A DNA stretch of 64,000 bases, from positions 46,635,159 to 46,699,158 of the forward strand of contig OX031059.1 of the NCBI GenBank assembly GCA_943736015.1, given 5' to 3'. The translations under genes and the position numbers were made by a program. This document shows, one piece after another, positions 485-61,273 of the stretch. Within the stretch, counting starts at the first letter, position 1, and each line of letters begins with the position of its first letter. The notes below the pieces were generated by a model. It was not told where the DNA came from. It did no database searches and saw only the letters and a program-made list of their open reading frames with translations. Source of the stretch: Tridacna crocea (taxonomy: Eukaryota; Mollusca; Bivalvia; Cardiida; Cardiidae).

Positions 485-710
485 TTAACCCTTTACCAAA
501 CTGCAATATTTGAGACTAGTCCAAATTGAAAGCACTTGCAGATGACAAAATAAACATTCAAAAATTAAGATTTGTTTCCAGCATGATAGAAAACAATGTG
601 GGAAAAGGAGAAAATGCTGCTAACCAGTATTTTCTCCTTTTCCCACATTGTTTTCAAAAGGCTTCTATCTTAGGGTTGTAAAAACAAGGGAATGTTTGGT
701 AAAAGGTTAA
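485..710 (-). mobile_element. TTAA-A element, near complete
   Basis: TTAA at both ends, CTTTACC left and GGTAAAAGG right. Stem apex AATGCTGCTAACCAGTATT has lost perfect pairing. Confidence 0.8.
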
Positions 711-1212
711 TTTGAAGTAACAACAGAGACATTGTAATATGTCAAAGTTTTCACCCAATGACAATCTAGATGACAATAGGTCTATGACAATACCAAAATG
801 TCTTTTTAATGTTTGAAAATGGCTGAGCTAAAAAAAGTGAGGAAAGGGGAAAACACACAAAAGTTACAAGCATTTTTGCTTTCTTCTCAGTGCTCTTCAA
901 AAATTGTTTCCCATGATCGTAACAAAACATTACATTATTATGTAAAGCATTCAGCTTAGAGCTGCCTAGAATATAAAACATTTGTTTTCTATCAATAGAC
1001 TAAACCAAGGTACAATAACTTCAAGGCCACTTAGACCTAAATATCTCACAAAATATTGGACAATGAATGTCCATGTTTGACAGCATGTTTTGCCAAGAAC
1101 CTTATGTTGCCCTTTGCTTGCTTAAGGAAAGCGATTGCTTGTTTCAAAATATCTTTTCATTAAATTTCAACTGGTCTGATGAATAAAACACATTGAGCAC
1201 TAATGGGCTTAC

Positions 1213-1311
1213 CTCATGGATAGGAAACTGTGAAGGAATACTAGTCAGGTCTGGTCCATGCACGATGATCTTCTTTGCACTGGGAACATTGGCCGATATC
1301 ATAATATGTGG
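1213..1311 (-). CDS. UNC80: UNC80 exon 27, last one in the window
   Basis: 99 nt, 33 codons. Acceptor GTTTTGCAG, donor GTAAGCC. It reads PHIMISANVPSAKKIIVHGP, then DLTSIPSQFPIHE, aligned with LLVTASMPGTKTLVVHGQNECDIPTQLPVHE. The good donor shows that the gene continues to the left. No further UNC80 exon is recognisable in 1-1212. Confidence 0.95.
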
Positions 1312-4300
1312 CTGCAAAACAAAACAATGTGTAAAAATCTTCACACAGACACAAATTTTTAGACAAGTCCATATTGAAAGCATGACATAACTGCCAAACC
1401 CCATTTTGTGTTCAACATCCTTATTTTACAATAAAATTGTCCACGTTCTTTGCTCCCAATGTATTTCTGTGACCATTACACCAAGCAAGCCAATATAAGT
1501 GTGGATGTATAAAATCCAATTAGTAGAACAATCAGCTGAATCATGGGCCATGCTGGTCCTTTGACATGTAAAAAATTGACCGATGGCAAAAAGTTTTGGC
1601 CCTTGGTCAGCCTGCCCAGATTGCATAGGCCAAAATGTGTCAATACTTTTTGCAAATGAATTAAGCCCCTTTTCACAGAGCATGGCTCATGAAGTTAAAA
1701 AGGTTATGAGTAACTGTCAACTGTTTGCCAGATAAAAATTTCCTGACTTACCCATATTGAAAAAAATTCCAGCTGTCAAATCAATTGTGGCTTAGAATAT
1801 AGTATGTACCATTTAAAGGGTAGAAAAAATTGTGGGAAAAGGATAAAAATGCTGGTTACCAGCTTTTTTCCCCACAATGTTTTCAGAAGGCCTTCTTCCT
1901 CAGCGTTGTTAGAGCACAGTATTGTTTGGTAAAGAGTCAAAGAAAGACCACTTACATCACACTGTTCTTTCTTCAATGTCTGCTTCAGATCTTTGAAATA
2001 GACACCTTCCACACTTGGAACAATCTGTAATAAAAACGAAGCAGCAATATCATCTTACTGCACTTCCATGTATACAATGTCTGGTGGGATAACAGTAGAG
2101 GATGTTATGTTAGTTTGATTTTTTACTATTACAACTCATTTAACCCATTACCACACAATCATTACTTTTGGCAACACTGAGAAAGAAGCATTTAGAAAAC
2201 ATTGTGGGAAAAGGAGAAAATGATGGTAACCAGCATTTTCTCCTTTTCCCACACTGTTTTCTACCCTTCCAAAACAAATTTTCAGTAACTTTTATTTTGT
2301 CGTCTGCAAATGCATTTGATTTGGACAAACCTAAAATTTTGTCGTTTGTAAATGAGTTAATGATTGGGGCTTAGATGACTTCTTACCACATTAAACCTGT
2401 GCCAAACAAAAGGTGAAAGGCTGGTAAGCTTTTCCCATAATGTTTTGAACTCTTTCAAAAACATATTCCATCATTTGACACGTATTCATCAAAAGCTTTC
2501 AATTTGGAAAAGTCTAAAATTATGACATATGGCATAAAATTAATTATGATGAACTACTGTGGATACATGTATTCCAAGCTTTGTTATTCAACCCTGCAGG
2601 TCTCAATAAAGATATTCTTACAAGTTACATTCCTACGTCTTTTTCATTAACAGTTCAATTGAGCATTTTTTTCCTTACAAGATCTATAACTGAGACAGTC
2701 ATCAACCTTTCAGAAAATACAATTTATGCTATCACTACAGAGGCACTAGATCAAGATCAAATTGTAACTAGCAGATAACTTTGTAAAAATGCAAGAAACA
2801 CATTTAGGCAGTTTCTTGCTTTGACACAGAAGATAAACTAGAAGACCCTGAAGGGCCTGAATATGCTCTACTAGCAGTCAACTTGAAATGGCTACTTTTC
2901 CCATACTGTTTGTTGGTTTTTTTTTTTTTCAAAATCCATAGGATTGAAACTATTGATGAGAATTTAAAATTTTCAACTTGAGATGGCTACTTTTCCCAAA
3001 TTGTTTATTGGAAATTTTTCGAAATCAATAGGGTTGAAGCTACTGTTGTGATAAACAAACTGTGTGATTTTGCATGATAATCTGACAAAGAATTCAGACT
3101 TTATCTTGTAAACAAGAATTTGAAATTTTCAACTTGAAATGGCTACTTTTCCCATACTGTTTGTTGGATTTTTTTCAAAATCCATAGGGTTGAACCTATT
3201 GATGAGATAAACAAACTGTGCAAGTTTCACTTAAATCTAGGAACAAAAGCAGACTTTATTGTGTAAACAAGAATTGAAAATTTTCAACTGGAAATGGCAT
3301 CTTTTCCCATGTTGTTTGTTGGATTTTTCTCAAAATCAATAGGGTTGAAGCTATTGATAAGTTAAACAATCTGTGCAAGTTTCACGAAAATCTAACAACA
3401 AATGCAGACTTTATCGCGTAAACAAGAAAAAGACTATCAGATGGACAGACGGACGGATGGATGGATGGACAGATGACGGAAACCCTGCCATGACATAAGC
3501 TCTGCTGGCTTCAGCCAGTAGAGCTAAAAACTGTTGGTTGTACATCACAGAAAAATGTCTTTATATGTACAAATGTTATGAAATAAGTAGGATAGCTTTC
3601 CAAAGACATTACCTGCCACAGTAGAGCTAATGTTGTAGCTATGGCCTCTTGTCCATAGGACTGTGGAGTTCTTACATAGAACATTACGTAACCAATCTGA
3701 AAATGAAAGACAAATTATATTACATATAATTTAAAAATTAAACGAGTCTTACCTGTAAGATGAAGTTTGATTGTATTTCTATTTCGCCAATAAATCGGTT
3801 CGGAAATAAAATGAGATGTAGCTCACGCATGCGCAGTCAGTAGCTACGTTAATGGCGGGTGATTGATCCTCTAAGAAGACGCAGTCGTCGAAATTACGGA
3901 TTTTTACTATTATTAGCAAGCGTTTGAGGTGTCCTTTGTGGCCATCATATGCAGACTCATTTGGTGTCGATTTTAGACCCGAGGTCGTACGGATTCTATC
4001 GTTTTAATGTTAGAATCTTTGTATTTTAATTTGACCACGTGATCCAACATGGGCGAAACTGGGGGAAATTCCAAAACAAAGGACTCGAATGCGGGGCCTA
4101 CAGCACATATGGAGAAAAAACTCCCCGCTAAAAAGGCTTCTGCTAAGTCTACTCCACCGAAGTTGTCGAAAGAAGGGGCCGAAGCACCGTCCAATGACTT
4201 GTTAGAGAAAATCTTGACGGGTTTGTCGGACATAAAACAACAACAAAAAACCACCGACAAAAATTTCACCCAACTTGTTGATCGTATTTCTTCGATCGAG

Positions 4301-10300: not shown

Positions 10301-13300
10301 CATGTGTCTATTTTTAGAAATGTTATGGGTAAAGAAATTACGTCATTTAAGCGGGGGGGAATTATTTCCCTGTCACAGTGAATATTTTCCTCCTGCCGAA
10401 AATCTGGTCAATTGACTTGAAATCACTACTTTTAAAAGTAGCCTTCGTTGACAAAATAATCAGAGGAAATATAATATACAATTTATTTCATCAGCTTGTG
10501 GTTAATACCTTTCCTTTTTTCCGCAAATATTTCCCCATATTAACCACAAGCTGATGAAATAAACTCTATTTCTCTGTAAGGATAGGGATAATCAACAAAA
10601 AAGGTGTAATACATTTATAAACTGGGAAAAAATATTAATGACAAAATAGGGAAAATGGCATTGATTTGATAGATTCCCCCTTTTGTTGGATTTCAATAGA
10701 AGTCTGCTGTATGGCATTATGTTAATAGTATATTAATTGCTCTTTGTCCAGGAAAAGGGGGTATATATACATGTACCATTATAGCCTATTACATTGAATT
10801 GAGACAGTAATGAGTTTGTTCATCACCATTGTCTAATAGAGTTAATGGTAGGAACAGTGATATGCACTAAGTGGCCATTAACATTTCTCCAAATTCCGTA
10901 TTTTGATTGACTTACATGTATTTTTTGGTGTGCGAGAAAATTAATCATACTGCTTCCAATCACGCATTCACAAAGGAAAACAATATTGGAGGAAAGCAAG
11001 GTTACTGGAGCTACATGTATATAGATTAACCCTTTACCAAACAATCCCTTGTTTTTCTGACCCTGAGATAGAAGCTTTTGAAAATATTGTGGGAAAAGGA
11101 GAAAATGCTGGTAACCAGCATTTTCTCTTTTTCTCACAATGTTTTCTACCCCCTAGAAACAAATTTCAATTTTTGAGTTTTGTTTATTTTGTCGTCTGCA
11201 AATGCTTTCAATTTGGATCAGTATAAAATTTTGTTGTTTGGTAAAGAGTTAACACGCTATTACTGTCTGTTGCCTGATATCAAAGTTTTAGCTGTCAAAG
11301 TTTAAACATAGTCATTTTACTATTGAAAATATTGATAACTTTTAAAAGAGCCGCAGTTTTATATGGCTATTGTGTATCAAGTCTAAAAGTACACAGTTTC
11401 AAAGTCTTGTATGTGGAAATAAAGCTAAATATTTTTTCTTGTCGTTTAATTTCATTTTTTCATTACCATTAATTAAATTACACATAAAAATCTAACCATT
11501 ACCTGGGTGCCTATGCAACTTAAAACAAAAGAAGAAATACAACATGTAGACTTGATTGCAAAATAAAAATTATTCATCTACTAGCTATTTTCCTAAAAAT
11601 CATCATTTAAGACTTGTCAGACAAGCTGAACAGCAGAATCCCCACTTTTAACGACCCTAAAAGAGAAGGCTTCTGAAAGCCATTAGCCAAGGAGATAATC
11701 CCAGTAAACATTATTTTCTAATTTTTCCTACAGTATTTTGTACCCTATAAAACACAGATATCATCATTTTGCAACATTAGCCCCCTGAAAATGCCTTCAA
11801 TTTGGTCAAGTTAAAAAAATTGTCATTTTGCGGAGATAAATCATAAACTAACTCACATTTTTATCCTTATGGGTCATTTTTTCCAGAAAATGTCTGAGGA
11901 ACAGATTGGGGTCTTCTACCATACAGTTCCAGATAACTTTCTCTGCAACTTCACTGACTGTAAAAACAAAGTTTCAGTTTATAAAGGAAAGAAATTCCAA
12001 GGGACAAAACTCCCATAATGATTGATTAATCATTTTAAAACTGCAGGAACAGACTTTCCTTTGTATGATGGCTTACAATAAGTTTTTGTGTTTGTTGAAA
12101 ACTGCAGGGTGAGAGGAAGACACCTTAACCCTGTTGTTAGAAGAGGGGGAATAAAATTATTGCAAAACCTTAACATTTGTAAGGGCTTTGGCCACTGCTA
12201 TGTTTTGTGAACAAAATGATTAGGAGTAAATTGAAAAATTTTACCTTCAATTTGCTGCAATGTTTTCAACAATGAAATTTATACATAATATGTTCACATT
12301 TTAGTTCAGTAAGCACATATAACATTTAGTGGTCAGTCTGAATTATTCAATACAACAGCAACTTAGGTTACCAACTAGGACCACACTACAATTATCATAC
12401 TAACATGGTTAACCCTTGATGACCTGATGGAGAAAACTTCTGAAAACTTTGTGGAAAAGAAGCAAATGCTGGTTACCAGCATATTTTTTCTATTTACTGC
12501 AATGTTTTCTGCACTAACAAGAACAAATTTTATCATTTTAGCCACCTTGAATATGTTGTCTGCCAAGTCAATCATATTCTAATATACCTGCAACTCCATT
12601 GTCGTTGACCTCTCCATCATCTAAAAGATGTATTATGGGTAATACTACAGCACAGATGGATGATGGGAAAAATGTCTGTGCAAGTTGAACATGGTGTAGA
12701 TGGTCTTGTCTTTCCTCATCACCTACACAATTGTAAAGCCATATTGAAGTAATCTATAACAACTTTTCATCAAGTATTCAAATTACCTAAATCTATTATA
12801 ACTTGTTTAACAGTGACACACATTACAATACCAGAATGTTCACAGAGAAATATAACTTAACCCTATCAAAAACCTGTTTAAAGGAATATGGGAGGAAAAT
12901 GCATACATGTGTATATCACAGAGGAGAGGACAAGGGATTGGAAAACAGAGTAAGAGGATATACATGTAGTCAACTGAATTGCTATGTCTGCTGTGAACCA
13001 GACAACAACAAAATAGACTTTTCGACATTGAAAACATTTGCAAATGACAAATGAAATGAGGCGAAAAGTAAGTAACTTTTTCGATAAAATTGGTACAGAA
13101 ATTGGGGGAAAAGGAGACTTTTGTGTGATCACAAACATTTTGTTTTACCCAGGGTGTTTTAAAAGCCCTACTTCCTAAAAGTCTAGAAAGGATTATTTGG
13201 TAAAGCTTTAACCCTTTACTCCATAGATACTCATTTCCACACATTGCTTGTAGGAGCCTTTGGAAAACATTGTGGCAAAAGGTGAAATTGCTTGTGACGA

Positions 13301-16300: not shown

Positions 16301-19300
16301 AATTAAATGATGAAATGTAACAATAAAATCAAAAACAATTATAATTAGTAATGAAAGTGCTCCATATCTGTAACTCATAAACTGAATATAATAGAAAAAG
16401 GTCCTCTATGTTCTTCCAAAACAAACCAGAACTATAGAAAACAGGAACTAAAGCTTTCTAGAATAGTTTACCCAACAAAAGAGTATGGTACTATGAAATC
16501 TGTTGCTTGCTTTTTTCCCCAGATGAGAATACCTTCGAAGAATGTTGTTAGTCGTGCCCAGTGCATACTTCCGTTTCTCCACGACATGCTACGACTTGAA
16601 ATATTGTTACGATTGGTAGGCGCTAGTGACACACGTCGTGCAGCAAGATTTATCTCTTCTTGCAGTGCTGATTATTGAAGTAGATGAACATGCAAGTTTA
16701 TATACATACAATGTAGTTATCAAAAACAAATTTTGAAACAAATTAAGTATTGTGGACGAACTTTCTCACATTCCATTTACATACATTAAATACAAGAAAT
16801 TATATGATGGTTTAAGGAAGAGCTATAAGCTAACTTTTTTGTTTAACCTTTTGTATTGGTTAAAGTGAAAAAAGAATAACATCAATTTATGAGAAAAAGA
16901 TGCGTTCCTCAACTATGATCTCAATATACATGTATGTCCTAATATATACAAATCATTAAAACATGTATAAAAATAAGTTATTGTCTAGCATTTTTTCACA
17001 ATTGAGTCAAGAGACATGAAGATCTGGACAATTTTTTTGCACACTGAATAACACATATGCAAAACATGAAACTATACAGTGACACTTAAAAACATGGTTT
17101 TAACCTGTTCCTTTGGAACAAGCATAAAAAGAAGAAGTGTGCAATTACTCTGCAGTATCTAAAATAGATGAAATAATGATAGTGATCTACTCAAAAGCAG
17201 TCAGGTAGCCAGCATGCAGCTGTACACAAGACATAAATTAAAATGAATAAATTCAATTAAAAAAAAATACCCATTATAATATGTATAACCTTTGTGCAAA
17301 AACATACCGGTACAATCAAAAGCCTTTAACCCTTTCCCAAACGGCAAATTTTGGACCAGACCAAATTGAAAGCATTTTGCAGTTGACAAATCAACAGTTG
17401 CTAAAAAGAAGATTTTTCTATATGATAGGGTAGAAAACATTGTGGGAAAAGGAGAAAATGCTGGTTACCAGCATTTTCTCCCTTTCCCACAATGTTTTCA
17501 AAAGGCTTCTATTCCTGACCCGTAAAAACCAGGGATTGTTTGGGAAAGGGTTAATAGAAAGTCTGTTGCAAGTAGTGGAGTGCTGTTACAAATCAAGTCT
17601 TTACTGGTCAATAAAATTTTATCTTGTCAGTTTTGATAGCATTTTGAAGATGACAAATGTGACAATGTCACAGGATTAATCTTTAAAAATATCATTGGAA
17701 AAAGGAGATAATGATAAAGTTAACATATTTAACCATTTCCCAAACAACAAAATTTTGGACAAGACCAAATTGAAAGAGCTTACAGACAACAAATCAAATG
17801 TAATGTAAATGATGATTTTTGTTCATGAAAGAGTAAAAAACATTGTTGGAAAAGAAGAAAATGCTGGTTACCAGCATTTTCTCCTTTTCCTACAGTGTTT
17901 CCAAAAGCCCTCTTTCACAGCACTGTAAAAACTAGGGATTGTTTGGGAAAGGGTTAATTCTTATTTCTACGTCCTCATCAGGGTCTTGTAAACACCACAA
18001 GATTGTAACTATGGTAGAGGATTAAACAGCACTCTTTTGAGGAAAATGTAATGCGGATTTGGCTGCACATGTTCATCGCAACATTACAATAGTTAACCCA
18101 TTACCAAACGACAATATTTTAGACTAGCCCAAATTGAAAGCATTTGCAGACGACAAAATAAAAGTTACTGAAAATTTGAAATTTGTTCTGGGAAGGGTAG
18201 AAAACATTGTGGGAAAAGGAGAAAATGCTGGTTACCAGCATTTTCTCCTTTTCCCATAGTGTTTTCAAAAGGCTTCTTTCTCAGGGGCGTCAAAAGTAGG
18301 GATTGTGTGGAAATTGGTTAAAGCTCTTTTCATGACTACAGTAAATGTTGCCTTTGCAGCCAATTTAGTTCCAGATATGACTGCACAAAAGATACAGTCT
18401 AATCTCTGATCTACACTGTAAGATTTGCTAAAACATTGCAGACAAAATGAACCTCAAAATTGCAATTATTTTGGTCTTGTTTCTAGACTGAAAGTATTGC
18501 TTGGGTTTGTTTAGGGCACTAAGAGTTAACCTTCATGCTCTTTTCTGCAACAACATATAACAACAGATGTCTTTTCAATGAATGTTCCCATCAAAGGCCA
18601 GGAATGCTAAGAAGATGAGAGCTTCATGCTTGATGACACTTAGTTTGAACCAAAGAATGCCAAGTTAATAATGTACAATTTTCGGTCAATAAAACCAGCA
18701 AACTATTGCAGTTTTAAGGTTTTTTAGCCCAATGCATCTCTTGAGATATTCTACAGTAAAGATCATAGATCAGAAAGCTGACAATGTGGCAAGCAGTTAG
18801 GAAAACACAGTTTTACAACACTTCATGGCAAAGCAGCAATTCATGGAGCTCCCTAAAGAAAACTATAACTAAGTAGGAAGTCATGAGAAATTCATGATTC
18901 AAATGGAATTTTTTATGTTCTAGCAAGATAGTTACGATTCATCAGTAAACTTGAATCACTCTGCTATGCTTTCAATGGTACATGCAAACTATGTATATGT
19001 ATGGAATCTAATTCATACAATAGGCTGTATGCTGAATGGAACCTAATTAATAAAATGGAATGAATGCTGAATTTGACAACAATGGAAAGAAGTCACAAAG
19101 CTAGTATCATATTGTTTATACTTATTTGAACCACACAATCCCGACTTTTAAAAACCCTGAAAAAGAAGCCTTTAGAAAACATCATGGGAAAAGGAGAAAA
19201 TGCTGGTAACCAGCATTTTCTCCTTTTCCCACAATGTTTTTTTCCCTTCCAAAAACCAATTTCACATTTTCAGTTACTTTTATTTTGTCATCTGCAAATG

Positions 19301-22300
19301 CTTTGATTTGGGACTAGTCTATAATTTTGTCGTTTGGTAAAGAGTTAAACAACAAAAACTTTTGTTCCTCATCAATAGGATTCTTACAGATAGCATCCAA
19401 ACTTCAAGTTGTCACATTGTATTTATTCCTTATCTCTACCTATTACCCTTACCTCACTGCTCCAACCAAAGAATGCACAACAGTTGTCTTGGTCCAAAAT
19501 TCTATTTAACCCTTTCCCAAACTGCAAATTTTGGACCAGACCAAATTGAAAGCATTTGCAGACGACAATTCAAATCTTGCTGAAAAGATGATTTCTGTCT
19601 ATGATTGGGTAGAAAACATTGTGGGAAAAGGAGAAAATGCTGGTTACCAGCATTTTCTCCTTTTCCCACAATGTTTTCAAAAGGCTACTATTCCAGACCC
19701 CTGAAATCCAGGGATTCTGTGGGAAAGTGTTAATGAGTTGTTGCTTTTAGGTGTGAGGGTTAAAAAAGTGACTGTATATGACATATAAAATCCTATATAG
19801 CAAAGTATAAAAATCCTTGAAACCTTCAACAAACAATCTCCTCTTTTGAATGCTCAATGGAACAAGCATTTCAAAAAACTGTGAAAAAAATATGTGAAAT
19901 GCGGTTAACCTGCATATTCTCCCTTTCCCACACTGTCTTCTGCTTTTTGTAAGACAAATTCTATCATTAAGCCACTTTCAAATGATGTCTACAAAATAGT
20001 GCTTTCTCTTTCGACATATTAACAACAAAATTGCAGCTTTGCCCAAATCGGAAGCATCTGCAGAGGAAAAATTAAATGTAACTCAAATGATGTAATATGT
20101 CTTTCCAAAGGTAGAAAACATTGTGGTAAAAGGAGAAAATGCTGCTTAGCAACATTTTCTCCTTTTCCAACAATGTTTTCAAAAGGCCTATTTATCTGGG
20201 TGGTGAAAAATATTTTGCAGTATCTACATGTATAAGCAATTAATGCATTATATAAATTATCCATGCTAATGACGTGCATGTGTATATACATACATGCAGC
20301 TAGTGTCTACTTCTAACTATCTACTATATTATGCCTGTGATTGGCAGTTTGAAAATCCTCTCACTTGCTTAATCTTACCAGATGCACAATACACCTACTT
20401 AAATTCTTAGACTTTTTACAAAGATAAGATCTATGAATGAATCATTTGGTACAGGCACAAGTCATTTCAGCACTTAACAGTTGTTAACTTAATTACACCA
20501 AAGTTGTGACATTTTGTGAAACAAGAAATCGAAATAGCCATTCGTCTAGTTCAGAGAGAGAACTCCCCCTCCCCCTCCTTTTAGCCTATATCAGAATTTC
20601 ATAACATGAAACTGTCTGATACACCATGAAATTATTCTGTGCTACTATACAATCTTTACAAGTTTAAGATTTTTTGAGCCAATCAGATTAAATTTGTCAT
20701 CAGTGAAAAAAAAAATCACGTGACCATGTAATTCAAACCATTTGATATCTAATGTTTACATAAATAATGAAAAGGATGACGAGTAACTGCACATATACAA
20801 ATGTAAAATCTGCAAGACACCTCTTGCATACGGTATTTTGGCATAAATACCCGACACCCTTCTTAAAAAGAAGTGATTCCAATATTCTTCTGGAAAAATT
20901 AAAAAAAAAAAAACCCAAATTTCTTTTCTGGTTAATAAATTTCCATTGTATTGCTTAGATTAACCAATGAACTGACTAAAAAGCAATCTTTTAACTCTTT
21001 ACCAAAAGACAATATTTTAGACTATTCCAAATTGAAAGCATTTGCAGACGACAAAATAAAAGTGACTGAAAATTTGAAATTTGTTTTGTGAAGGGGGAGA
21101 AAACATTGTGGGACAAGGAGAAAATGCTGGTCACCAGCATTTTCTCCTTTTCACATAATGTTTTCTAAAGGCTTCTTTCTCAGGGGCGTCAAAAGTAGGG
21201 ATTGTGTGGAAATGGTTTTACTGATCTCTGATTACTGATCTAATATACAAATACTAGAAATGGTTTCCCTAGAAATTTTCAATTAGATTAACTCTTTACC
21301 ACACAACAAAATTTCAGACATGTCAAAATTAATCAAATCTGCAGAAAGATGAATGTGACTAAAATCATGCCATAGTCTGTGAAAGGATACAAAACATTTT
21401 GGGAAAAGGAGAAAATGCTGGTTACAAACATTTTCTCCTTTTCCCACACCATTTTAAAAAAATCTTATTGCTTTGGGTCATTAAAAGTTGGGATTGTGTG
21501 GTAAAGGGTTAATACCTAAAATACAGACATAACGTGAAAAGATTAAGTGAAAATGATATTGTGTAAGAACTAACATTCCAACATGTTGTATTGACTTGTG
21601 AGCTAGTGTGTACTACTATTATTAAAAATATAGCACTAAACATACAGTATACAGGGCACCATCCTTTACAAGCTATTAATGCATGGAACCAGCATCTCTA
21701 TACAACATGCAGCTATAGCAGAAAATCAAGAAAAAAGTCAGTGTTAGAATACATTGTACTTCAAGATTTTCATTTAGAATATCTTAATTTTGATGAAGAC
21801 AGCAACTCAATTCCTTCATATTCACTAAAAAGACCTTCCAGTGGCAACACTTTTTCAAATCATAAAACATACCATGGTCATTGATTTGTATCTGGGATTT
21901 GAAATATTGGGTGGAATAGTCACATATCGACACAAAAGTAAAAGGCACAGTCATCCTATGGGATGGATTGAGAACTTCCAGAGCAAGTAGTAGCACATGA
22001 TGTTTTCACTGTTCTATTACACTGTTTGAACAATCAATTCCCTTACTTGCAAGGCAGATACTAGAGGTACATGTTCTATGAAGTTATAGACATGATGAGG
22101 GAATAATGTATATCGGTAAGTAGGAACACGCAAGGAAATAATAGTACCTTCTTCATGGTCCTCACTAACATGATGCAATGATGGTTCCAAGGCAGCAAGC
22201 TGGGTCACAGACACTGTTGTCAAGGGAAATGTCTCTCGACCAATCCTTTTTCTTTCTTCCTCCCTCTGAAGAGCTCTTCTTATCATTTCTTGCTGCTGTT

Positions 22301-40300: not shown

Positions 40301-43300
40301 GCATAAGTGTACATTTACAATGCTCAAAACCAGACTTTTGTATATTTTTTGTGCAAAAATATGAATTTTCCTGTATAACTGACTATTAAAAAAAAGGTGC
40401 TTTAAATCCAACATAAGCTGAATTTATTTTGGAACTGCAGATACCTTTTTTAAAAACAAATTTCTCAAAAATAAGCAGTGACCTACATCTTTTTTAACTG
40501 TTATCTCCGAGACATAATTATGGTCTTTGTATGTGCAAAGTTTTAAAAAAATCTGTTCGAAAAATTTGTCATATACATCGTTAATCAATAGGTAATTGTG
40601 GGGAGAAGCAGAAAATGATAAGAAACATCCATTTCTCCAATCAGTGATTTCTCTTTTTCCATGCAATAAAATCACATCATTTGATCCCCAATTGCCAAAT
40701 GACAGTTATTAAGTTTTCTCCCAGGTAGGTTAAGAGTTTCTATGTTAAAAGAGAGAACAATGAAAAAAAAAAATGCATTCAATAGCATGAATTCGATAAA
40801 CTCAGTATGACTCCCCTACCTCAGCCCAGCTATAGAACATGCGACCTGCAGCTTTCTGGAGAGTAACTGTGCGTCTAAAACCAGAAGGTTGACCTCTACT
40901 GCCCAATGCTGATGATGAATGCCTAAAACTTGGCAAGTTTAACCTCATCCAGTTTGGCCAATCATTATGGCTACATCTATGGACAAAGTGAGCACATTCA
41001 AGCAGAAGTGTGGCTCGAGCTGATACTGGAGCATCCTGTATAATAAAAGTCATTCTCATCAAATGCTGTAATAAACAATTTGAATGGAAATGCGGGAAGG
41101 AAATTGAGATAACATACTTAGGGTTGACATGTGCCTCATCATAAAACTATCAAAATAAATTTCACCTTTTAGACAAATGTTAAAAACTAATGTAAAACAA
41201 AATTAATTTCACAATCAGAATATGACAATATGTAAAGTCTGTTCAAGTGTTAGTACCTGGCAGAGAAGTTAATTTCAAAAATTAGGTTAAAAGTTACCAG
41301 ATCATTTCATCTTCTGTTTCCTTTTTCTTGATTTTAAAACTAATTTTTCTGCCACCGACTAAACCTGGACCAGCAACACAATAACAGATTGTCATCTTCA
41401 CAATTTTTCCCATACTTTCAAAGTATTATTTAAATTCAAATGCATTTTAGTACCTGCACTGTTTTTTTGCATCTACTGAGCCTCTAAATCTTTTGAAAAT
41501 CAACTCACTGATCTCAATAACACATGTATATCTATACAGGTAAGTCTAACCCTAACTGGAACTAAATAAATGAAACAATCTCATGCACAACTAAAGAAAT
41601 AGTATTGAAATTTCAAGGCTGTTGTTTGCTGATTGTCTGGAAAAGAAGCAGACATTGGAACATTGTCAATCTACAGCCTGCACATTCTGTGCAGTATGAT
41701 CTTGATCTACAGTACCCACTAGAACACTAAAATCCAAGGTCAGCAAAACAAAGAGTTAAGAACACTCACCAGTTGTAACATAGCAGCCACAAGCTGTGGA
41801 TCAGGTATGGTACCTGGGTGACAGCATTCTAAGAGGAAACTAAACCTCAACATCCCAGACTTTATGATATACTTATCCACCATTTTCTTCTCTCTAACAA
41901 TAACTTCTACATCAGCTTCCTCCACCATCTCACTCTGACTCTGTTTTGTATCTGTGAAAAGCATTCAGTCCATTACCATACAAATGCACTTTTTTACCTT
42001 CAACAATGTTTCAGAAGGTTTCAAAATGTTTGGTAAAAGCTGCATGTTTGATAAAAGTGATAACTTCTTTTCCAAACCCCTTTTTCATATTTTTCAAAAA
42101 ATACCCTCCCTCTATATGGTACCACTTGTGTGATATGTGTCAAATAGCCTTTATTGTCTACCCTTTCACAAGGCAAATCCCTTCATTTAGTCATAAACAT
42201 CTGTCATCTGTCAATTTGAGCTACAGTGTCTGGAATTATGTAGTAAGGTGTTAATAATGATCTAAACATTATATCCAAAACCATTTTATGTTGATAAAAA
42301 TTACATCTATTATTCAAAGAATGATATTTTCATAGACACTCGATGTTTCTTTTTCATGTTTACCTTTAGTAAGGTCAAGTTTGGGAATTTTCTTCCCTAG
42401 CTGTTTAAGTCCACCCTCTATCCTTCTGCGAGCACTGAGAAAAGTCAAGGTTGCTTGACTTGCTGTTTTAAAGGACATTTTGCCCTTCAGACCTGTTCTA
42501 TGAAAGTGGCTCTCACTCTTACTCTCCCTTCTGTCCAAAGCTCCAGGCTCACATGGAGGTTCTTCTTCATGATCAGACTTAGGCTTCCTCCATCCTGTAC
42601 CATGAAAATACATCATATCAAAGAATTTCACACAAAATGTTTCTCTAAACAGTTTAGCTTAAAACAAGTTGATTCGCAGCCATATTTACCATCGATTTCA
42701 GCCCTTTCCAAAACAAAACAAGTTATAAATAATTGCAGATGACAAATTCTAAATCAATATATATGAAATCTAGCTATTTGATAGTATAGAAAACACCATG
42801 GGAAAAGTGAAAATACTTCATCTGAGAAAATGCATTCTTTCTTTTTCCAGCAAAGCCTTCTCAACTCAGAGTCATTAAAACTCTGGATTTTGTTGTAAAG
42901 GGTAAAAAAATAGATCTATTTCTAAATTCAAAGATCAACTGAAACAGAGTTGCTTCTAGCCATTTCATCTCTCAATGTTTTGAAAGCCTTCTCTTGTTCA
43001 GGCTTCAAGTCCTTTACCAAAAAAAAAAGGTTTTAGACTCTTCAGAATTCAAAATATTTGCAGACGACAAATTGAACAAGTTCAAATGATGGAATTTGTT
43101 AGACAATGGATAGAAAACATTATTGGAAAAGCAGAAAATGCCAACTGACAGCATTTTCTGTTTCTCACAGCATGTTTTCAAAATGCCTCCACCTCAGGGT
43201 TGTAAGAATTTGGGATTGCAAAGGACAAACAGTTGAAGGTAAATGAAATACTGTTTTTTCCAAAAGAAAAAACATTGTGGCAAAAGTATCAACTGGGGCA

Positions 43301-46300
43301 GCCTAAAAAGTTTATCTGTACATTAACCCATTACCAAACGACAATATTTTAGACTGGCCCAAATCGAAAGCATTTGCGACGACAAAATAAAAGTGCCTGA
43401 AAATTTGAAATTTGTTTTGTGAAGGGTAGAAAACATTGTGGGAAAAGAAGAAAATGCTGGTTACCAGCATTTTCTCCTTTTCCCACAATGTTTTCTGAAG
43501 GCTTCTTTCTCAGGGGCGTCAAAAGTAGGGATTGTGTGGTAATGGGTTAAAAAGTTGCGCATAATAGTAATCAGAAGTATTTCTATGACTAGGATCATGT
43601 TTTATACTTACCAATATGAAATTTACTAAACTTCCTTCTGGGAGTGCTTGTGCCTGATGGAGGATCATCTTCAGCAGCTGACAGGCTTGCTCTTGGACTA
43701 TTTTTATTGTAATTCTCATCTACAACCTCAGAGTCACTAGCTGCATAGGGCTGTTGTAGATTTAATTGCTAAAGGCAGATAGAACTAGAGCTGTCACTGA
43801 ATGTGACTTAATACCCCCACCAGCCCTTTGACAGAAAAAGGCAATTACAAGTATTTTATACACAGACACATACACTGATGGCCACACAGATGGACACATG
43901 GACAAACGCACAGACAGGCTGATTCCAGTATACCCCAAAAACATTCTTTTTGCAGGGGTATAACAAACAAGACGACCATCAGATCCTGTATCACTCACCC
44001 AATACCTTTTTTATCTGTAGATACCATTTTTTTGCAATACAGTGTTAAAATACAGGAAAACAAGTGTTGTCTCAGGTCAACAAACCTTGTTTAGAAATAC
44101 ATTTTTCAGCTGAAACTATGCCTGTTTGTGTTCTCATAACCCATATTTGATGATGTAATTGTATCATAAAGAGATAAGATCTTCACGAGAAGGATTATTT
44201 GATATTTTCGGACAAGAGCTCTATATTCCTTACCCCAATCTCAAAATTTCAAAACAAGGCTCTAATATGTTTCTTTGTCACTGTACCTGCTTGAACTGAT
44301 GATAGTGGTAAAGTCAAAATAAGTTTATACCTTGATTTGAATGTTAGAATTAAGATGCAGTGGTTATGTGCAGCTACCTTTGAAGTAATTTTCATGCAAG
44401 ACAAAGTCAAACTGGTGGGTTAGTCTCATTTATTAAAATTTCCTCAGGTAAAGAAATGTATTTGCACATTATGAACTTTACTATATAATACACAATTAGG
44501 TTATCAACCCTTAGAGCACCAAATAAACCAACGGACATTTTTGCTATGTAAATAAGACCCATTACATGTAATGACATTTTACAGCTTGCTCTTGTTCAGA
44601 ATGTCACAGTAAAGCTAGACCAAAGACACTGAGCCCAGACTGATCTTGATCTGCACTGACAGCAAAAACAATTATAGTTGTAAAATGCAATTTGAGGGTT
44701 AAAAGAAATGGACACATGTGTGTTGTTGAGGTACAACTTTATGAACTCTGTGCCAATTTTAGACAGAATATGACACTCATCCAAAAATTAAGTATTTGCA
44801 TATGAAAATTTAATTTGTTTAGAATTCTCAAATTTGTCTGTGAAAGGGTAGAAAACACTGTGCGGGAAAAGGAACGATTGTAGTTCACCCACATATTCTC
44901 TTGTTCCCACTTTGTTCCCAAAGCCTTCTTTCTCAAGATAGCTGGCAATCAGGATTGAAAGGAAAACGGTGGATCCTGTTTAAAAATATCTCACTAACCC
45001 TTTGTACACAATACAGACTTTCAAAACGCTCAGGAGCATGCCTTATGAAAACTTTAAAGGAAAAGGTAGAAATACTGGAAACCAGTATTTTTTATTTTCC
45101 TCACACAAAGTTTTGTACCCTTTAATATACAAGTTTAATTATGTGAGCCAAATTTCAGTTGTCATCTGCAAATAATTTTAATCTAGACAGACATGATTTT
45201 TTTCTGTGTAGAAAAAAGTCAAGCTTGCCAAAAGTTTGCTCCATATCATATTTCAAGACTCACATATTATCTATAATAAACATTCAGCTTTACCCATTAC
45301 CAAACGACAATATTTTAGACTGGTCCAAATTGAAAGCATTTGCAGACGACAAAATAAAAGTAACTTAAACTTTGACAATTTGTTTTGTGCAGGGTAGAAA
45401 ACATTGTGGGAAAAGGAGAAAATGCTGGTTACCAGCATTTTCTCCTTTTCCCACAATGTTTTCTAAAAGCTTCTTCTTCAGGGGCGTCAAAAGTAGGGAT
45501 TGTGTGGTAATGGGTTAAAAGCGAAGAATTGTGAGTAAATTTTATATCTCCCAATATCTGTTACCTTCTTCATTCTTTTCCTAAATATAGATTTCCTGGA
45601 TTTTGTCTTGTCTTTTCCCTCTGTACCAGAGCTGTTTGGTGTCTGTGTTTTCTGACTTTCCTTTTCATCACCACTCTCAGAGGTTACAGAAGTTGTTCGA
45701 CTTTATTCGAAAGAGAAAAATTTTATATAAGTAACAAAACAGAAGTCAGTGACCACAAGGCTTTTACTTATATTATACATAGGCTTTTGTAAAGGATATG
45801 TTAAAAATAAGATTTTTAACCTCCATACACAAGTTACAAAATTAAGCAAAATTTAAAATGTTTTTGTACAAAGGGGATAATCAACATAAACAAGGAGTAA
45901 GATTTCATAAGAAATAATTTCTGACTTTCAAAAATTTGCATCTATTTGAATGCTATACTCTTTATCAAAAAACATAAAAATATAAGATTAAACCTTTACT
46001 AAACAATCCGAACGACAAGCAAAAAGTTTTTAAAAAAGGGGAAAGGCTGGTAACCAGCATTTATTCCTTTTATCACAATGTTTTCTTTTCTTTCAAAAAA
46101 GACAATTCAGCTATTTCTGTTAATTTGCCATCTGCAAGCACTTCCAACTTGGATGTGTCTACAATTTTGTCATTTGGTAACCTTTAACCCTCTACAATAC
46201 CACAGAGTTGTAGACTTGTCCAAATCAAATTTGACTCAACTGAAATTCTTTTTGGGCGAGTAGAAAACATAGCAGGAAAAGCGGAAATACTGGTTATCTT

Positions 46301-49300
46301 TGCATTGTCTTTTTATAAATTACAAACTGTTCAGCCATTTTTCTCACGTTTATTTAAATTCATGATTGTTTGGTAAAAGATGAACTCACCTGATTGGATG
46401 AGAGGATGGAGTGACCACCTCCTTTACTTGTCCAGCTTTCTCCTTCACATCAAAATAAGAATCCAGTAAACCACTTAGAGCCACCCGTCTAAATGTTCCG
46501 CCATGAATCTCTTTGAAATAGGTCACAAGTTGTCGAACATCACAAAATAAACTCTGAAATTACACAATAACCAGTATGCTACTAATTACCTGAATTCTAC
46601 AAACTGAAATAGCAATCCTTATCTTTAATGACCCTGGGAGGAACATGTGAGCATAATGGTTTTAATCTTTCCCTTTCCCAAATTTTTTTCTACATTTTCA
46701 AAAGCAAGAACTACTGGTACTTGAATTTTCGATATGTTGTCTTCAAATGTTTTCAATATGGACAAGTTCTGAGTCTATCATTTGGTATAGCGTGAACTCA
46801 ACAGGGTTACAGACAAGACTTACATGTTAAAGAGCTATACAAAGTTCTTCATTGAAACATTTGTTAAAACTGCAAATGATGAGGTATGACAAATAATTTG
46901 GTTGTCTGAAAACAACACTAATCATTTTCATAAAATCATCTTGAACCTATTCCGCTTTTTTATTTTGATCTTTTGACTGCTTATGCTATCTATAAGGCAT
47001 GAGAGAAGAACTGAGGATTTAACTTGTTGGAAATTAGCCAACAACAAAATCTGAAGGTTCATGTGTTACATTATATATTTTGTTATAAACAGTAGAGTTA
47101 GAGTTTTTCAACTGCCTGGCATAGCTATCATTATTGTTGTCAAAGTTATTACTATTGTTGTTATTATTTTCATCATCATTTAACTGTTTACCCAATTACA
47201 AAATTTTGGAATTGTCCAAACTGAACAAATTTGTAGATGACAAAATATATATGATTCAAAAATTGAAATTTGTTTTGGGAAAGGTTGAAATTGTTATAGG
47301 AATAGGAGAAATTGCTGGTAACCAGCATTTTCTCCTTTTCCAAAAATGTTTTCAAAAGGCTTTTTTCTCAGGGTCATTAAATGTTGGGATTGTGTGGTCA
47401 AGAGTTAAACCCTTCTACCAAAGCTTCTAACAAAAAATTATAACATATGACAGGAAATGGCCACAACCCCAATACACCAAATACCATTCCATTTAAAGCT
47501 TATAATACAGAAAAAAAAGAGCTCATGTATTATCTGTTTGGTTGCATTTGCGACCATATGGGTTCATGGAAGTAAATGCAATTGCAAAGGATAACTCACG
47601 ATATTATCACTGCTGTATATCTCTTTAGTTGATTCTGTGCATCTTGACACAAATGTTTTCATGGCATTTGAGATGAGAACACCCTCCACTCCTCTGTAAC
47701 CAACCCCACCAATACTGTGTCCAAAGTTATTTGAAAATCCATTATTATGTAAGGCTTCCTGGGACACTGACTTTCTGTGAGCTAGAAAAACAAGAAAGAC
47801 AGCAGGATGTCTTTTTTTTTTCAACAGTCCTAAATATTGTTCATATTTCGTTAACCAACTAAATTCCTTTCTAATTTAAAGCTTATACACTAGCAATCTG
47901 AGAGCTGGGACATTAATTCATTTTCAGTCTGGACTAGTCAGTCACATGGACAGTTGTTGCCTAAGTTTAAGAGCAAGTTCCAACTCCACACCAGCTACCT
48001 GACTGGCTCAGAATGAGCAGGTTAACCCTTTACCACACAATCCCGACTTTTAACACCCCTCTGAAAAAAGCCTTTTGAAAACATTGTGGGAAAAGGAGAA
48101 AATGCTGGTAACCAGCATTTTCTCCATTTCCCACAATGTTTTCTTCCCTTCCTTAAACAAATTCAATTCTTCAGTCATGTTCATTTTGTCGTCTGCTAAT
48201 GCTTTCAATTTGGACCTATCTATAATTTTGTCGTGTGGTAATGGGTTAAGACAGAATATCAGCCAATCAGATTTCTAGATAAGAAATTATCATTTTACAT
48301 AACAATCCTGATTTTTAACAACCCAAAGTATGAAGGCTTTTGAAAACATATTGGGAAAAGAAGCAATGCAGGTAATGCAACATTTTGTCCATTTTTCCAC
48401 AATGCTTTCTACCTATTTAACTCTTTACCACACGAAAAAATTTTAGACTGGTTCAAACTGAAAGCATTTCCAGACGACAAAATGAAGGGGACTGAAGAAT
48501 TGAAATTTGTTCTGGGAAAGGTAGAAAACACTGTGGGAAAAGGAGAAAATGCTGGTTACCAGCATTTTCTCCTTTTCCTACAGTGTTTTCAAAAGGCTTC
48601 TTTCTCAGGTGCGTCAAAAGTAGGGATTGTGTGGTAATGGGTTAAAGTGAAATTTAATCATTAAAGCCACATTTACCTTGGAGTCTGCAAAGGCTTTCAA
48701 TTTGGGCAAGTCTTCCTAATATTTTGTTGTTTTGTGAAGTGTAGAGAGCCTATCACAAGTATAGTTGCTTTAAACAATTTTTTTTTCAAATCTCTTGTTT
48801 AATTCATCAAATGGTGTTTTATGCCACTATCAACATTTCTTTGGTGACATCACAACAGCTCACTTCTTCATTACCTCCAGGGTTTCATAATTACTCGTCT
48901 TCAGCTCTTCAGCTTTGGGTGAGCAAAATATGGGTCCTACAAAGGTTTGTGCCACTAGCAATTCAACTTATTACAATGAGGAAAAAAAAGCAAATCTACT
49001 CCACTGACTTTCATATACCTGCAACTTCACCAGATGATGTAGTTCTTTTGCATGCAGTATCAAAGCAGACACTAAATCAAAAGTACATTGATATACATTC
49101 AGCATTTTGAAACCATGACGAGTAAAAAAATTTATACCTAGCCTTTTCCATTATTTCTTGGTGTTTCACAATGCTTTGCAATAGTATTTTAGTTTTTATA
49201 TAACATTATTTTCACTTATCTATGCATTTATTTTGCCAGACCAAGTATGAACACATTTTTCTAAGCCAGCAATGGCTCTCTGTTATAAAAGGAGTAAAAG

Positions 49301-52300
49301 CAATGTACAACGCTGATAATGGAATAAAACATGAAAGACTTTAACCCATTACCACACAATCCCTACTTTTGACACCCCTGAGAAAGAAGCCTTTTGAAAA
49401 CACTCTGGGAAAAGGAGAAAATGCTGGTAACCAGCATTTTCTCCTTTTCCCACAGTGTTTTCTACTCTTCCCAGAACAAATTTCAATTTCTCAGTCACCT
49501 TTATTTTGTCGTCTGCAAATGCTTTCAATTTGGACCAGTCTAAAATTTTCTCGTGTGGTAATGGGTTAAACCAAGCCATATTCAAAAAGTCTCATTCAAA
49601 AGTAAGCCTTTCATATACAAGTTTTCTCTCTTAGTGATCGAATTATAAGAGCCACTGTAGTAAAACTGAAGTGATATTAAGCTTTCTACATTTTTTCTAT
49701 AAACTAGAAGATGAAATTGATAATTGTGAAGTTAAGCTCTTTACTGAGCTACAAAATTCTAAAATGACCAAATTGTAAGCATTTGCACACAAGTTGAAAA
49801 TAGCTTAGCTGTAGGATTTAGTTTTTGAAAGGAAAGAATACTTGTGGGAAAAGGCCTTCCTTTACAGTGTCATTGAAACTCCAAGTTGTATGGTAAAGAG
49901 TTAAAATTACTGCAGCCTCATTCATCTGAAAGGGTAGGCTAACAAGCCATTCTTCACAGACCTAATCACTCATGGCTTCAAAGAAAATTATAATAAAATA
50001 AGACCAGAATTTCCCTTCAAATAAAAACAAAATGTTAAATAATATGCATGTACAAGCTTTCTGCCACAGAATATGATACAATAGAAAAAATGTAATAACT
50101 ATAATAATGGTCATAACAGCCATTTCTTCCAAGCCAACATGAACTCTCTACCAAATTACAAAATTTCTAACTTTTGCAATTCAAAGCATTTGCTGATAAG
50201 AAAAAAAAATTGTTTCATATATGGCTTGCAACACGCGAAAAGGGACATTCGGACATTTGCAAAAAGTGCCGTCTCGGATCAGCCTGCGCAGGCTAAACCC
50301 GAGACGGCACTTTCCGTTTATATGATTTTTTCTGTTCTACAGAAGTCTACTGAAGGACAAAATCTAATGAAGACGTGAAGTGCCGTCTCGGATTAGCCTG
50401 CGTGGACTGCGCAGGCTGATCCGAGACGACACTTTACGCAAATGTCTGAAAGACCCTTTTCGCGTGTTGCACTCCATATGGGATTTGTCCTTGAAAAGGT
50501 AGAAAGCATTGTTGGGAAAGGAGAATATTCCAGTTATTAGTATTTTCTCCTTTTCCAACAATTTTTTCAAAAGTCTTATTCCTCTAATTCATTAAAACTC
50601 AGGACAATGCAGTAAAGGGTTAATTCCTTTCCACCTAAAATAAATTTTGAAAAGACAACTTTGAAAATATCCATGTAAAGCCAGGTAGATCAATGTGCTC
50701 TATGACTCAATGAAAACAATGGGAAAAAAAAAAACATTTTTTTTTTTACAAGTGATACATCTTTTTTGCAACATGGTCTTTAAAACATGTGCATTGCTAG
50801 AAGAAAAAAGTTGTCTGCAATGGCCAAAAATCCTGAATTTTAATGACTGTAAACTGGAAGAGGTATTCAAAGCTATGTGGGAAAAAGAGAAGATGCTGGT
50901 AGCCAGCACTTGCTCCTCTTTCTTCAATATCTGCTATGCTTTAACTCTTTACCACACAATGCTGAATTTCAATGACCTTGAAAAGAGATAGCTCTTGAAA
51001 GCATTGTGGGAAAAGGGGAAAATCCTGATAACCAGCATTTTCTCCTTTTCCTACAATGTTTTCTACCCTTCAAAAGTGAATTTCAATTCATTTTGTCATC
51101 TGCAAATGCTTTCAACTTGGACCAGTCCAAAGTTTTGTTGTTTGGTATTAAAAGGTTTAAGAGAAAATCCATAATTTGAGCAAGATATGATTGGTCATCT
51201 ACTAATACTTTCGATTTGGATTAGTCTGAAATGTTGCCATTTGGTGAAAGTTCATTCTTTTACACATCACTATTAAATGCATTATTCCACTATTTAAGGT
51301 GAAACATGTGAAATGAAAATATTTTTGGGGTGAACATGTTGATATTTCAGGAATAACATAAGACAGACATGACTGTAAAATGCATTGTTCAAAAATTGCT
51401 ATCCTGTTAACTGTTCAAACAAAAACTTACAAGTATATAAATAGTTACACAGAGGAGAAATATTTGATAAAAATGGAGTATAATCTAATACATGTACATG
51501 TGCAACAAAAAAAAAGTGATTACTTAACCCATTACCACACAATCCCTACTTTTGACGACCCTGAGAAAGAAGCCTTTAGAAAACTTGTGGGAAAAGGAGA
51601 AAATGCTGGTACCACCATTTTCTCCTTTTCTCACAATATTTTCTACCCTTCACAAAATAAGTTTCAAATTTTCAGTCACTTTTATTTTGTGGCAAATGCT
51701 TCCGATTTTGAAAAGCCCAAAACTTTGTAGTCTGGTAATGAGTTAAGACAGAAAATTTCTCCACCTCCCTCAATGTTTCCAAACCCTATGCTCTGTAGGT
51801 CTGTTGGGACATAAAAGTAGTGGTATAATGCATTTACATGTGAAAGAGAGCATCAAAGCAAATAAAATAGTTAGTTTTTGCCCTTAATTAAATAATCAGT
51901 TACACAGCCCACACTAAAAGACACATAAGGACCTGAATTTTGTGTTAATGGGCTTGTGCCATCAGACATAGATGCATTACTTGTCTTCTTGGCTGTAACG
52001 AAATATTCAATGTTCCAGCATAAAAACAACATTTATTTTTACTAACAGTAACCTGAAACTAGATCTTGTCTGGGACATAGGGTCCGTAGTTTGACTTCTG
52101 GCACCCAGAGACTATATAGTATAAACAAGGGATTTAACTCTATTCAGCCCATTACTTGCCCCCGATTACAAAAAGGCAATGTATATTTTCTTTACTAACA
52201 GTTATTCTCCTTATTCTTTCGACAGCTGAGAGCTATAACATTTCACGGCCAGATAAACACAACTAATTGTCAGTTGCTAATGCAGTCTGACTGCTACAGT

Positions 52301-55016: not shown

Positions 55017-55245
55017 TTAACCCATTACCACTCAATCCCTACTTTTGACGCCCCTGAGAAAGAAGCCTTTTGAAAACACTGTGGGAAAAGGAGAAAATGC
55101 TGGTAACCAGCATTTTCTCCTTTTCCCACAGTGTTTTCTACCCTTCCCAGGACAAATTTCTATTTTTCAGTCACCTTTATTTTGTCTTCTGCAAATGCTT
55201 TCAATTTGGACCAGTCCAAAATTTTCTTGTGTGGTAATGAGTTAA
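55017..55245 (+). mobile_element. TTAA-A element, intact, ATTACC variant
   Basis: TTAACCCATTACCACTC...GTGTGGTAATGAGTTAA. Confidence 0.9.
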
Positions 55246-55580: not shown

Positions 55581-55584
55581 GACG

Positions 55585-55641: not shown

Positions 55642-55649
55642 ATGTGTAT

Positions 55650-60290: not shown

Positions 60291-60600
60291 AAATTAGTCA
60301 TTGCTCGCAATGTACAGCTTGGATCAGAATGAAAATCATACGAGAGCAATGCAAAAAGGTTCGGCTTTCGTTCCTTATAGAGAATCTCAAAAAATGATAT
60401 ACTAGTAATACGGGGGAGAAAATCAGTGTGGCAGGTGGAAAAAGTGTAAAATAAGTTAGACTTAATGCAGCGATACTTTTTATCTTATGAATACAGAACG
60501 ATATGCAAAGGTATTTATACGCAAAAATCATTGCAAGAACGATAGTGTATGGCAGGTTTTTTATTTAATTTGTTGCATTATTAATTTATCCACTTGGAAA
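60291..60600 (+). repeat. Partial third copy of the ~981-bp duplication
   Basis: Continues through GAAAATCAGTGTGGCAGGTGG and CTTAATGCAGCG, then is cut by the TTAA-A element at 60601. Confidence 0.7.
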
Positions 60601-60821
60601 TACCAAACAATCCCTAGTTTTTTTACGACCCTGAGATTGAAGCCTTTTGAAAACACTGTAGGAAAAGGAGAAAATGCTGGTAACCAGCATTTTTCTCGTT
60701 ATCCCACAATGTTTTCTACCCTGCTGGAAAAATTTCTTAATTTGAGTTATGCTTATTTTGTCGTCTGCAAGTGCTTTCAGTTTGGACCAGTGTAAGATTT
60801 TGTTGTTTGGTAAAGGGTTAA
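60601..60821 (+). mobile_element. TTAA-A element, left end truncated
   Basis: Begins at TACCAAACAATCCC without TTAACCC; right end TTTGGTAAAGGGTTAA. It interrupts the tandem-duplication region. Confidence 0.82.
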
Positions 60822-61027
60822 AAGTTAGGGAAAGAATTAAACCACGTGGCAAATAAACTGCAAAAAGTTTGTTTTTTTCCTCAGTGTTAATAACTCAGTA
60901 TCGAGGAAGTCTCTTGGCCATTTTTTTAAAACTTGACTCTTAAATTTATTCAGCACAAAATTACAAATTTTCCTAGTTGATAAAAGCAATAGCAAACAAA
61001 TGGATAGAGAAATGCGTGGAAAAATTG
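60822..61027. other. Spacer, nothing recognised
   Basis: AT-rich sequence between two TTAA elements. Confidence 0.35.
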
Positions 61028-61126
61028 AATCATTCCCAAACGACAAATCATTTAGACTCTTCAAAACTGAAAGACTTTGCAGACAACATTTTTCAGTTTC
61101 GGGAAAATGGCTGAAAGTTCTCAAAT

Positions 61127-61164
<38 letters not shown>

Positions 61165-61273
61165 GGGAAAAGGAAAAGTGCTTGTTACAAGCAATTTCTC
61201 CCTTTCCACACACTGTTTTCAAACAGCTTGTACTGCAAACACGTAAAAACAGGGCTTGTCTGGGAAAGGGTTG
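61028..61273 (-). mobile_element. TTAA-A-like element carrying a (CA)n run
   Basis: CATTCCCAAACGACAAATC...GTCTGGGAAAGGGTTGA, TTTCCC variant. The apex is B-like (GTGCTTGTTACAAGC). A CA run occupies the left base of the stem. Confidence 0.7.
61132..61162 (+). repeat. (CA)n microsatellite
   Basis: About 15 CA units. Confidence 0.95.

Follow-up and report, generated by a model that had tools for sequence, protein, structure and literature searches.

The stretch of the Tridacna crocea genome analyzed here (64,000 nucleotides; contig OX031059.1, forward-strand positions 46,635,159 to 46,699,158; hereafter the window) carries minus-strand exons that, judged from their predicted protein sequences, belong to the gene UNC80. 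It is densely filled with copies of one 229-bp miniature inverted-repeat transposable element (MITE). These copies very probably belong to one very large, long-lived, non-autonomous piggyBac-like family that comprises several subfamilies and occurs throughout the genome, that is present around UNC80 at a density shared by the genome, and whose central palindrome is conserved for a probable cis role in transposition. The family is ordinary in kind, i.e., a piggyBac-like MITE, and unusual in its abundance and its conserved central palindrome.

The window was analyzed by an iterative profile search seeded with the four intact copies singled out in the original prediction (43323, 49341, 48417 and 17326), which yielded a model of 229 bp. 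Matches overlapping a better one by more than 30% of their length were discarded. In total, 86 non-redundant full or partial copies were found (39 on the plus strand, 47 on the minus strand), covering 15,867 of the 64,000 bases (24.8%). The "roughly 70" copies and "a fifth" of the sequence first estimated by eye were thus real but slightly too low. Control searches of 20 dinucleotide shuffles and of the reversed window gave no matches. Near-full copies, i.e., those matching the profile from model position 1–3 to 226–229, made up 39 of the 86. Since the 30 best of these differ from the consensus by 5–22%, the family does not stem from one recent burst.

The consensus runs from TTAACCCTTTACCA to TGGTAAAGGGTTAA. 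Reading inward, TTAACCCTTTACCA opens both ends, and beyond it the two sides differ. The palindrome is centred on column 141 and comprises 33 consecutive pairing positions per side around one A/T base (67 bp). Thus, the anticipated TTAACCC...GGGTTAA ends, the palindrome with arms of about 33 bp and almost no loop, and a layout in which ends and centre are symmetric and the outer arms are not, were all recovered. The following copies are given in window coordinates; where the state of TTAA was read from the profile boundary, this is indicated by (pb).

485..710, plus: near-full copy, TTAA at both ends
1719..1940, plus: near-full copy, intact TTAA at neither end
2140..2360, minus: near-full copy, TTAA at both ends
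11026..11252, minus: near-full copy, TTAA at both ends
17326..17554, plus: near-full copy, TTAA at both ends
17729..17957, plus: near-full copy, TTAA at both ends
18093..18321, plus: near-full copy, 5.7% from consensus, TTAA at both ends
19506..19733, plus: near-full copy, TTAA at both ends
20991..21218, plus: near-full copy, TTAA at left only (pb)
21288..21512, plus: near-full copy, TTAA at both ends
22505..22731, minus: near-full copy, TTAA at one end (pb)
25118..25345, plus: near-full copy, low score, TTAA at both ends
25370..25575, minus: near-full copy, low score, no intact TTAA (pb)
25736..25971, plus: near-full copy, TTAA at both ends
29076..29301, plus: near-full copy, TTAA at both ends
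29595..29823, plus: near-full copy, TTAA at left, TCAA at right
30248..30476, plus: near-full copy, TTAA at both ends
32827..33042, plus: near-full copy, TTAC at left, TTAA at right
33079..33297, minus: copy sharing TTAA 33294-33297 with neighbour 33294..33492
33294..33492, minus: copy sharing TTAA 33294-33297 with neighbour 33079..33297
33768..33994, plus: near-full copy, match begins at profile position 3, TTAA at right
34373..34601, minus: near-full copy, TTAA at both ends
35045..35271, minus: near-full copy, TTAA at both ends
35421..35641, minus: near-full copy, TTAA at both ends
38168..38570, minus: older copy split by insertion 38221-38462, joined flanks align to model 65-228
38221..38462, minus: copy nested in older copy, TTAA at both ends
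39973..40201, minus: near-full copy, TTAA at both ends
43323..43550, plus: copy with perfect 13-bp ends, 5.3% from consensus
44744..44970, plus: near-full copy, low score, no intact TTAA (pb)
44995..45221, minus: near-full copy, low score, no intact TTAA (pb)
45289..45518, plus: near-full copy, TTTA at left, TTAA at right
46184..46381, plus: near-full copy, low score, TTAA at left only
47180..47408, plus: near-full copy, TTAA at both ends
48022..48249, minus: copy with perfect 13-bp ends
48294..48742, minus: older copy split by insertion 48417-48645, joined flanks align to model 4-222 via one TTAA
48417..48645, plus: copy nested in older copy, TTAA at both ends
49341..49569, minus: copy with perfect 13-bp ends, 5.7% from consensus
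51524..51746, minus: near-full copy, TTAA at both ends
53707..53935, plus: near-full copy, TTAA at both ends
55017..55245, minus: near-full copy, TTAA at both ends
61025..61272, plus: near-full copy, low score, no intact TTAA (pb)

By profile boundary, TTAA was present at both ends in 27 of the 39 near-full copies and not in the remaining 12. Its duplication on insertion was seen at an empty site: the MITE copy at L031:844-1070 is inserted in one element of a multi-copy piggyBac family, and eight of the nine supplied relatives are continuous across the join, with a single TTAA and 96.8–99.1% identity, while the ninth (L023) has a changed site. Within the window, two older MITE copies are interrupted by others, at 48417-48645 and 38221-38462; in both cases, removal of the insert, leaving one TTAA, gave a continuous alignment of the older copy to the profile. 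The nesting test over the 27 TTAA-bounded window copies revealed these two clear cases and a weak one at 17729. Hence, empty sites with a single TTAA, by which the prediction was to be judged, were found at L031 and at the two nested insertions; at a further copy, L033:3350-3578, which lies in the same piggyBac family as L031, TTTA was found instead (see below). Since the piggyBac relatives are highly identical around the L031 copy and the closest MITE pair reaches 98.7%, movement appears to have been fairly recent.

A third likely nested case was noted at 50826-51250, with the copy 50941-51147 between parts of an older minus-strand copy; the empty-site test, run on TTAA-bounded copies, did not include it, as its ends do not both carry an intact TTAA. 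One MITE copy is divided into two same-strand pieces (model 3-86 and 71-229) by some 240 bp of different sequence at 50225-50464, possibly another insertion. A preference for the TTAA of resident copies was considered and set aside: only two neighbour pairs share a TTAA, a figure for which no expectation was computed.

The genome containing the window comprises 1,048.8 Mb in 31 contigs. Twelve random 3-kb stretches contained 53 MITE copies (23.6% covered). All 32 random places combined (12 of 3 kb and 20 of 1 kb; 56 kb) contained 75 copies, i.e., 1.34 copies per kb (bootstrap 0.89–1.77) and a coverage of 21.0% (bootstrap 13.6–28.3%), and 12 of the 32 places held no copy. For the 3-kb places, 20 stretches of 10 kb were drawn on 12 contigs whose lengths were known, and the first 3 kb of the first 12 were used; for the 1-kb places, 60 were drawn on 18 contigs, the lengths of six being guessed, and the first 20 were used. 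The estimate changed little when the four-sequence seed profile replaced the iterated one on the same 56 kb (72 copies, 20.1%, 12.9–27.2%).

Genome-wide, 231,766 exact 25-bp palindrome cores and 21,256 complete elements of 214–244 bp with perfect 13-bp ends (TTAACCCWTTACC / GGTAAWGGGTTAA) were counted, the reversed-pattern controls giving 0 in each case. Exact core scans of a viral contig set and of a genome contig set gave no match in either. Per 64 kb, the window contains 20 cores versus a genome mean of 14.1 and three perfect-ended copies versus 1.3; thus, its content is somewhat above average without being exceptional. With 161 copies per 30 cores in the window and random sample, scaling by density or by core counts from these small samples extrapolates to about 1–1.8 million full and partial copies in the genome. 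By the sampled coverage, about a fifth of the 1.05-Gb genome appears to consist of this family.

Alu, a retroelement, reached on the order of a million copies and accounts for about one tenth of human DNA. If the estimate holds, the MITE resembles Alu in that one short non-autonomous family attained copies of that order, but differs in being a cut-and-paste element of 229 bp that occupies about a fifth of an animal genome.

Conservation along the element was profiled in 81 near-full copies, which came from the window, the random places and flanking DNA (143 kb together). The central palindrome is its most conserved part: divergence from the consensus was 7.6% in the palindrome (columns 107–175), 14.6% and 11.4% in the terminal inverted repeats (TIRs), and 20.3% for the left and 19.1% for the right arm. 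A further conserved stretch was found at about model 37–60 (11–14%). The nearest-neighbour divergence of 76 copies gave the same order, with 7.4% for the palindrome, 10.3% for the TIRs, 12.3% for this block and 16.5% for the arms.

The palindrome might be kept for an RNA hairpin, i.e., a small-RNA precursor or double-stranded RNA that benefits the element or serves the host. The predicted fold of copy 49341-49569 is indeed very stable (-97.3 kcal/mol, z -8.8), but such folding is expected of any palindrome and is a prediction from sequence. No Rfam match was obtained in the window at gathering thresholds, and a clear strand bias was not seen. This explanation is therefore considered unlikely.

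Alternatively, with each insertion one arm could be corrected against the other by gene conversion or template switching, which would maintain the symmetry without selection on mobility; excesses of paired double changes speak for this. In 126 copies, 138 both-side changes, 81 of them compensated, were found at true palindrome pairs, as compared to 63–88 in six shifted pairings. This excess indicates that source lineages changed symmetrically, and it is inflated by shared ancestry. Genome-wide, at pair 135/147, the only pair at which one-arm changes were counted, 8,867 copies with a one-arm change stood against 247 with a compensated double. The latter are 2.9-fold more frequent than under naive independence, a value to be read with caution given the differing ages of the copies. 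Unpaired cross doubles occurred in 392 copies over two types (196 each); relative to this control, the compensated doubles at pairs 135/147 (247) and 138/144 (281 copies) are only about 1.3-fold in excess. Moreover, among the youngest copies (n = 26), divergence of the palindrome (3.5%) was on a par with that of the right arm (3.2%), the left arm showing 7.7%. Thus, the arms of the palindrome decay almost independently after insertion, and the palindrome is probably needed for mobility rather than repaired in place. The one-arm, compensated and cross-double counts disfavour arm-to-arm repair as its main keeper, and that explanation is likewise considered unlikely. Selection on mobile lineages is the best reading of these data.

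With regard to the transposase, 118 matches to the piggyBac transposase domain PF13843 were found in the genome, some of them pieces of one copy. The best 30 include 26 with no internal stop, and two tested proteins matched only piggyBat and piggyBac among PDB chains (9c0f, 6x67). Inspection covered 30 loci of the 118 matches, with longer stretches for nine. The end types visible in these loci (TTAACCCTTTATATAC, TTAACCCTAGTCATGC, TTAACCCTTTCAGTGC, TTAACCCATTTATGCC, TTAACCCTCTAGA and TTAACCCTATCCTCCAC) all differ from the MITE end, and in several of the 30 loci the element ends were not located. In the terminal 400 bp of six piggyBac families (12 ends), no clear likeness to the MITE was found beyond shared terminal bases; the best score (26, left end of L038) exceeded the 95% value of shuffles (24) and lay below their maximum (29). 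The search for an autonomous piggyBac element with the same ends of about 16 bp, suggested in the original prediction, recognised no partner in the 30 loci.

Two piggyBac groups recur among these loci. The multi-copy family invaded by the MITE (L013-L019, L023, L031, L033) has a frame of up to 624 aa and ends of type TTAACCCTTTATATAC, its copies being 93–99% identical over the compared stretches. A several-kb stretch with a 492-aa piggyBac-like frame recurs in L039-L044 and, diverged, in L045 (with L025-L029, L034 and L037), and carries the same MITE copies at corresponding places. This group (L025-L029, with L034 and L037 related) was tried as a partner and set aside, its outer ends not being found.

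Kolobok and Sola3 also use TTAA as target. The classes cannot be told apart by TTAA duplication alone, and no autonomous partner was recognised in the inspected piggyBac loci, so that the MITE could belong to one of these instead. However, its TTAACCC/GGGTTAA termini fit the piggyBac motif CC[C/T]T in the accessible text on this motif (PMC2872659), copies with CCCA being also common here, and the genome, in which Kolobok and Sola transposases were not searched for, is rich in piggyBac transposases. Assignment to Kolobok or Sola3 is improbable. Three features expected of a piggyBac-like MITE were found, namely the terminal CCC/GGG motif with a TIR of 12–19 bp, a short length combined with a high copy number, and the TTAA target-site duplication (27 of 39 copies, eight of nine relatives at L031, and the two nested insertions, with L033 contrary). 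Together with the plentiful transposases, they support the originally proposed non-autonomous piggyBac-like MITE.

Related elements are described in papers of which parts were accessible. The CMITEs of Acropora corals (about 100 bp, an estimated 1600 copies in A. millepora) share the TTAA duplication, CCCTTT-type ends, the link to piggyBac and an interior more conserved than the TIRs (PMC2872659), as is the case here. They differ in their length of about 100 bp as compared to 229 bp, and a central palindrome is not mentioned for them in the accessible text (PMC2872659). One CMITE family has the ends of a known piggyBac, whereas no such match was recognised here in the 30 loci inspected; movement by piggyBac with different inner ends was proposed for CMITEs (PMC2872659) and would, by analogy, be possible for the MITE.

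The haemoglobin genes of the clam Lucina pectinata contain, in introns and promoters, a 210-bp MITE-like repeat, "consensus sequence 1", whose central palindrome spans 77 bp (96%) and for which matches were reported in other molluscs (PMC4732748). According to the accessible text, no target duplication was found, no superfamily was assigned, and the repeat was likened to rice MITE-adh (PMC4732748). Size, TIRs, central palindrome and partial copies are alike; its terminal repeat is identical at 27 of 30 positions, whereas the Tridacna consensus ends agree over about 14–17 bp only. Compared by description only, the repeat may be the same family or merely have the same layout. For this kind of central-palindrome repeat, the Tridacna MITE points to a likely class and a likely target site. 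In accessible parts of other work, MITEs take a considerable genome share in a bivalve transposon survey, where they were left unclassified, and DNA transposons make up 5.18% of the genome of the lucinid Indoaustriella. Among the matches listed in the literature searches, no paper was recognised as describing the MITE, the possible Lucina case aside, and a text search with six sequence pieces of the MITE found no paper.

Taken together, the 229-bp element with TTAACCC...GGGTTAA ends inserts at TTAA, duplicating its target, and we infer that a piggyBac-type transposase mobilises it in trans. The 67-bp palindrome, the ends and the subterminal block (model 37–60) would be held constant in lineages that keep moving. 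The palindrome most likely acts in cis in transposition, e.g., as a symmetric site for the transposase or a host factor. A precedent for such a role comes from the full-size, coding elements piggyBac and piggyBat, which likewise target TTAA and have symmetric palindromic transposase-binding sites in their ends, where dimers of the transposase cysteine-rich domain (CRD) bind a short palindrome (PMC11707139, accessible part). By this analogy, the palindrome may tentatively be regarded as a transposase-bound site. Somewhat more speculatively, it could be a cis-acting amplification module, i.e., a symmetric transposase or host-factor platform that unites both ends and enabled the family to reach about a million copies and a one-fifth share of the genome, while the outer arms were free to change, the element possibly being moved by several piggyBac transposases in turn. 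With ends, subterminal block and palindrome conserved and the remainder drifting, the family offers a natural test of the cis features behind MITE success.

Several observations weigh against this interpretation. At L033, the empty site reads TTTA, within a T-run, in the seven aligned of nine supplied relatives; because TTAA is expected there, the position agrees and the exact pre-insertion tetranucleotide does not. Precise excision was not seen, no test having been aimed at it. An autonomous partner with the ends of the MITE was not recognised among the 30 loci inspected, and the six piggyBac families with both ends seen have nothing significant in common with it beyond the terminal motif. 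The piggyBac palindrome is 19 bp long and near the ends, in contrast to 67 bp and central here (PMC11707139, accessible part). Finally, in the 26 youngest copies, preservation of the palindrome was better than that of the left arm but no better than that of the right.

The host gene is identified as UNC80 from predicted protein sequence: seven of the ten window open frames tested matched PF19424 (one, 35983-36222, under the curated cut-off), and a PDB search with the frame 22017..22367 matched unc-80 homologs.

22017..22367, minus: open frame holding UNC80 exon, PF19424 8.6e-25; PDB unc-80 homologs
28104..28334, minus: open frame holding UNC80 exon, PF19424 5e-19
31541..31777, minus: open frame holding UNC80 exon, PF19424 3e-24
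33389..33904, minus: open frame holding UNC80 exon, PF19424 9.1e-10
37790..38140, minus: open frame holding UNC80 exon, PF19424 2e-23
40802..41146, minus: open frame holding UNC80 exon, PF19424 1.8e-29

That the array is specific to this gene, by local amplification or as regulatory hairpins in its introns, is very improbable: 86 copies lie in 64 kb around the exons and cores are above the genome mean (20 versus 14.1), but random places are about as dense (21.0%, bootstrap 13.6–28.3%, versus 24.8%), 47 of the 86 copies lie on the gene's strand, i.e., without clear strand bias, and divergences of 5–22% are unlike one local burst. The original description of the array as a feature of one gene was thus contradicted by random sampling and whole-genome counts; the crowding at UNC80, a nerve-channel gene, looks typical of the genome.

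In addition to the MITE, the window contains tandem arrays at 7243-9808, with a unit of about 148/166 bp containing AGGGCCATAATTTGA and up to seven copies per block, and at 62077-64000, with a 123/240-bp unit running to the window end. A plus-strand open frame of 282 aa at 4043-4891 had no Pfam match at E 0.1 and may be a retroelement fragment.

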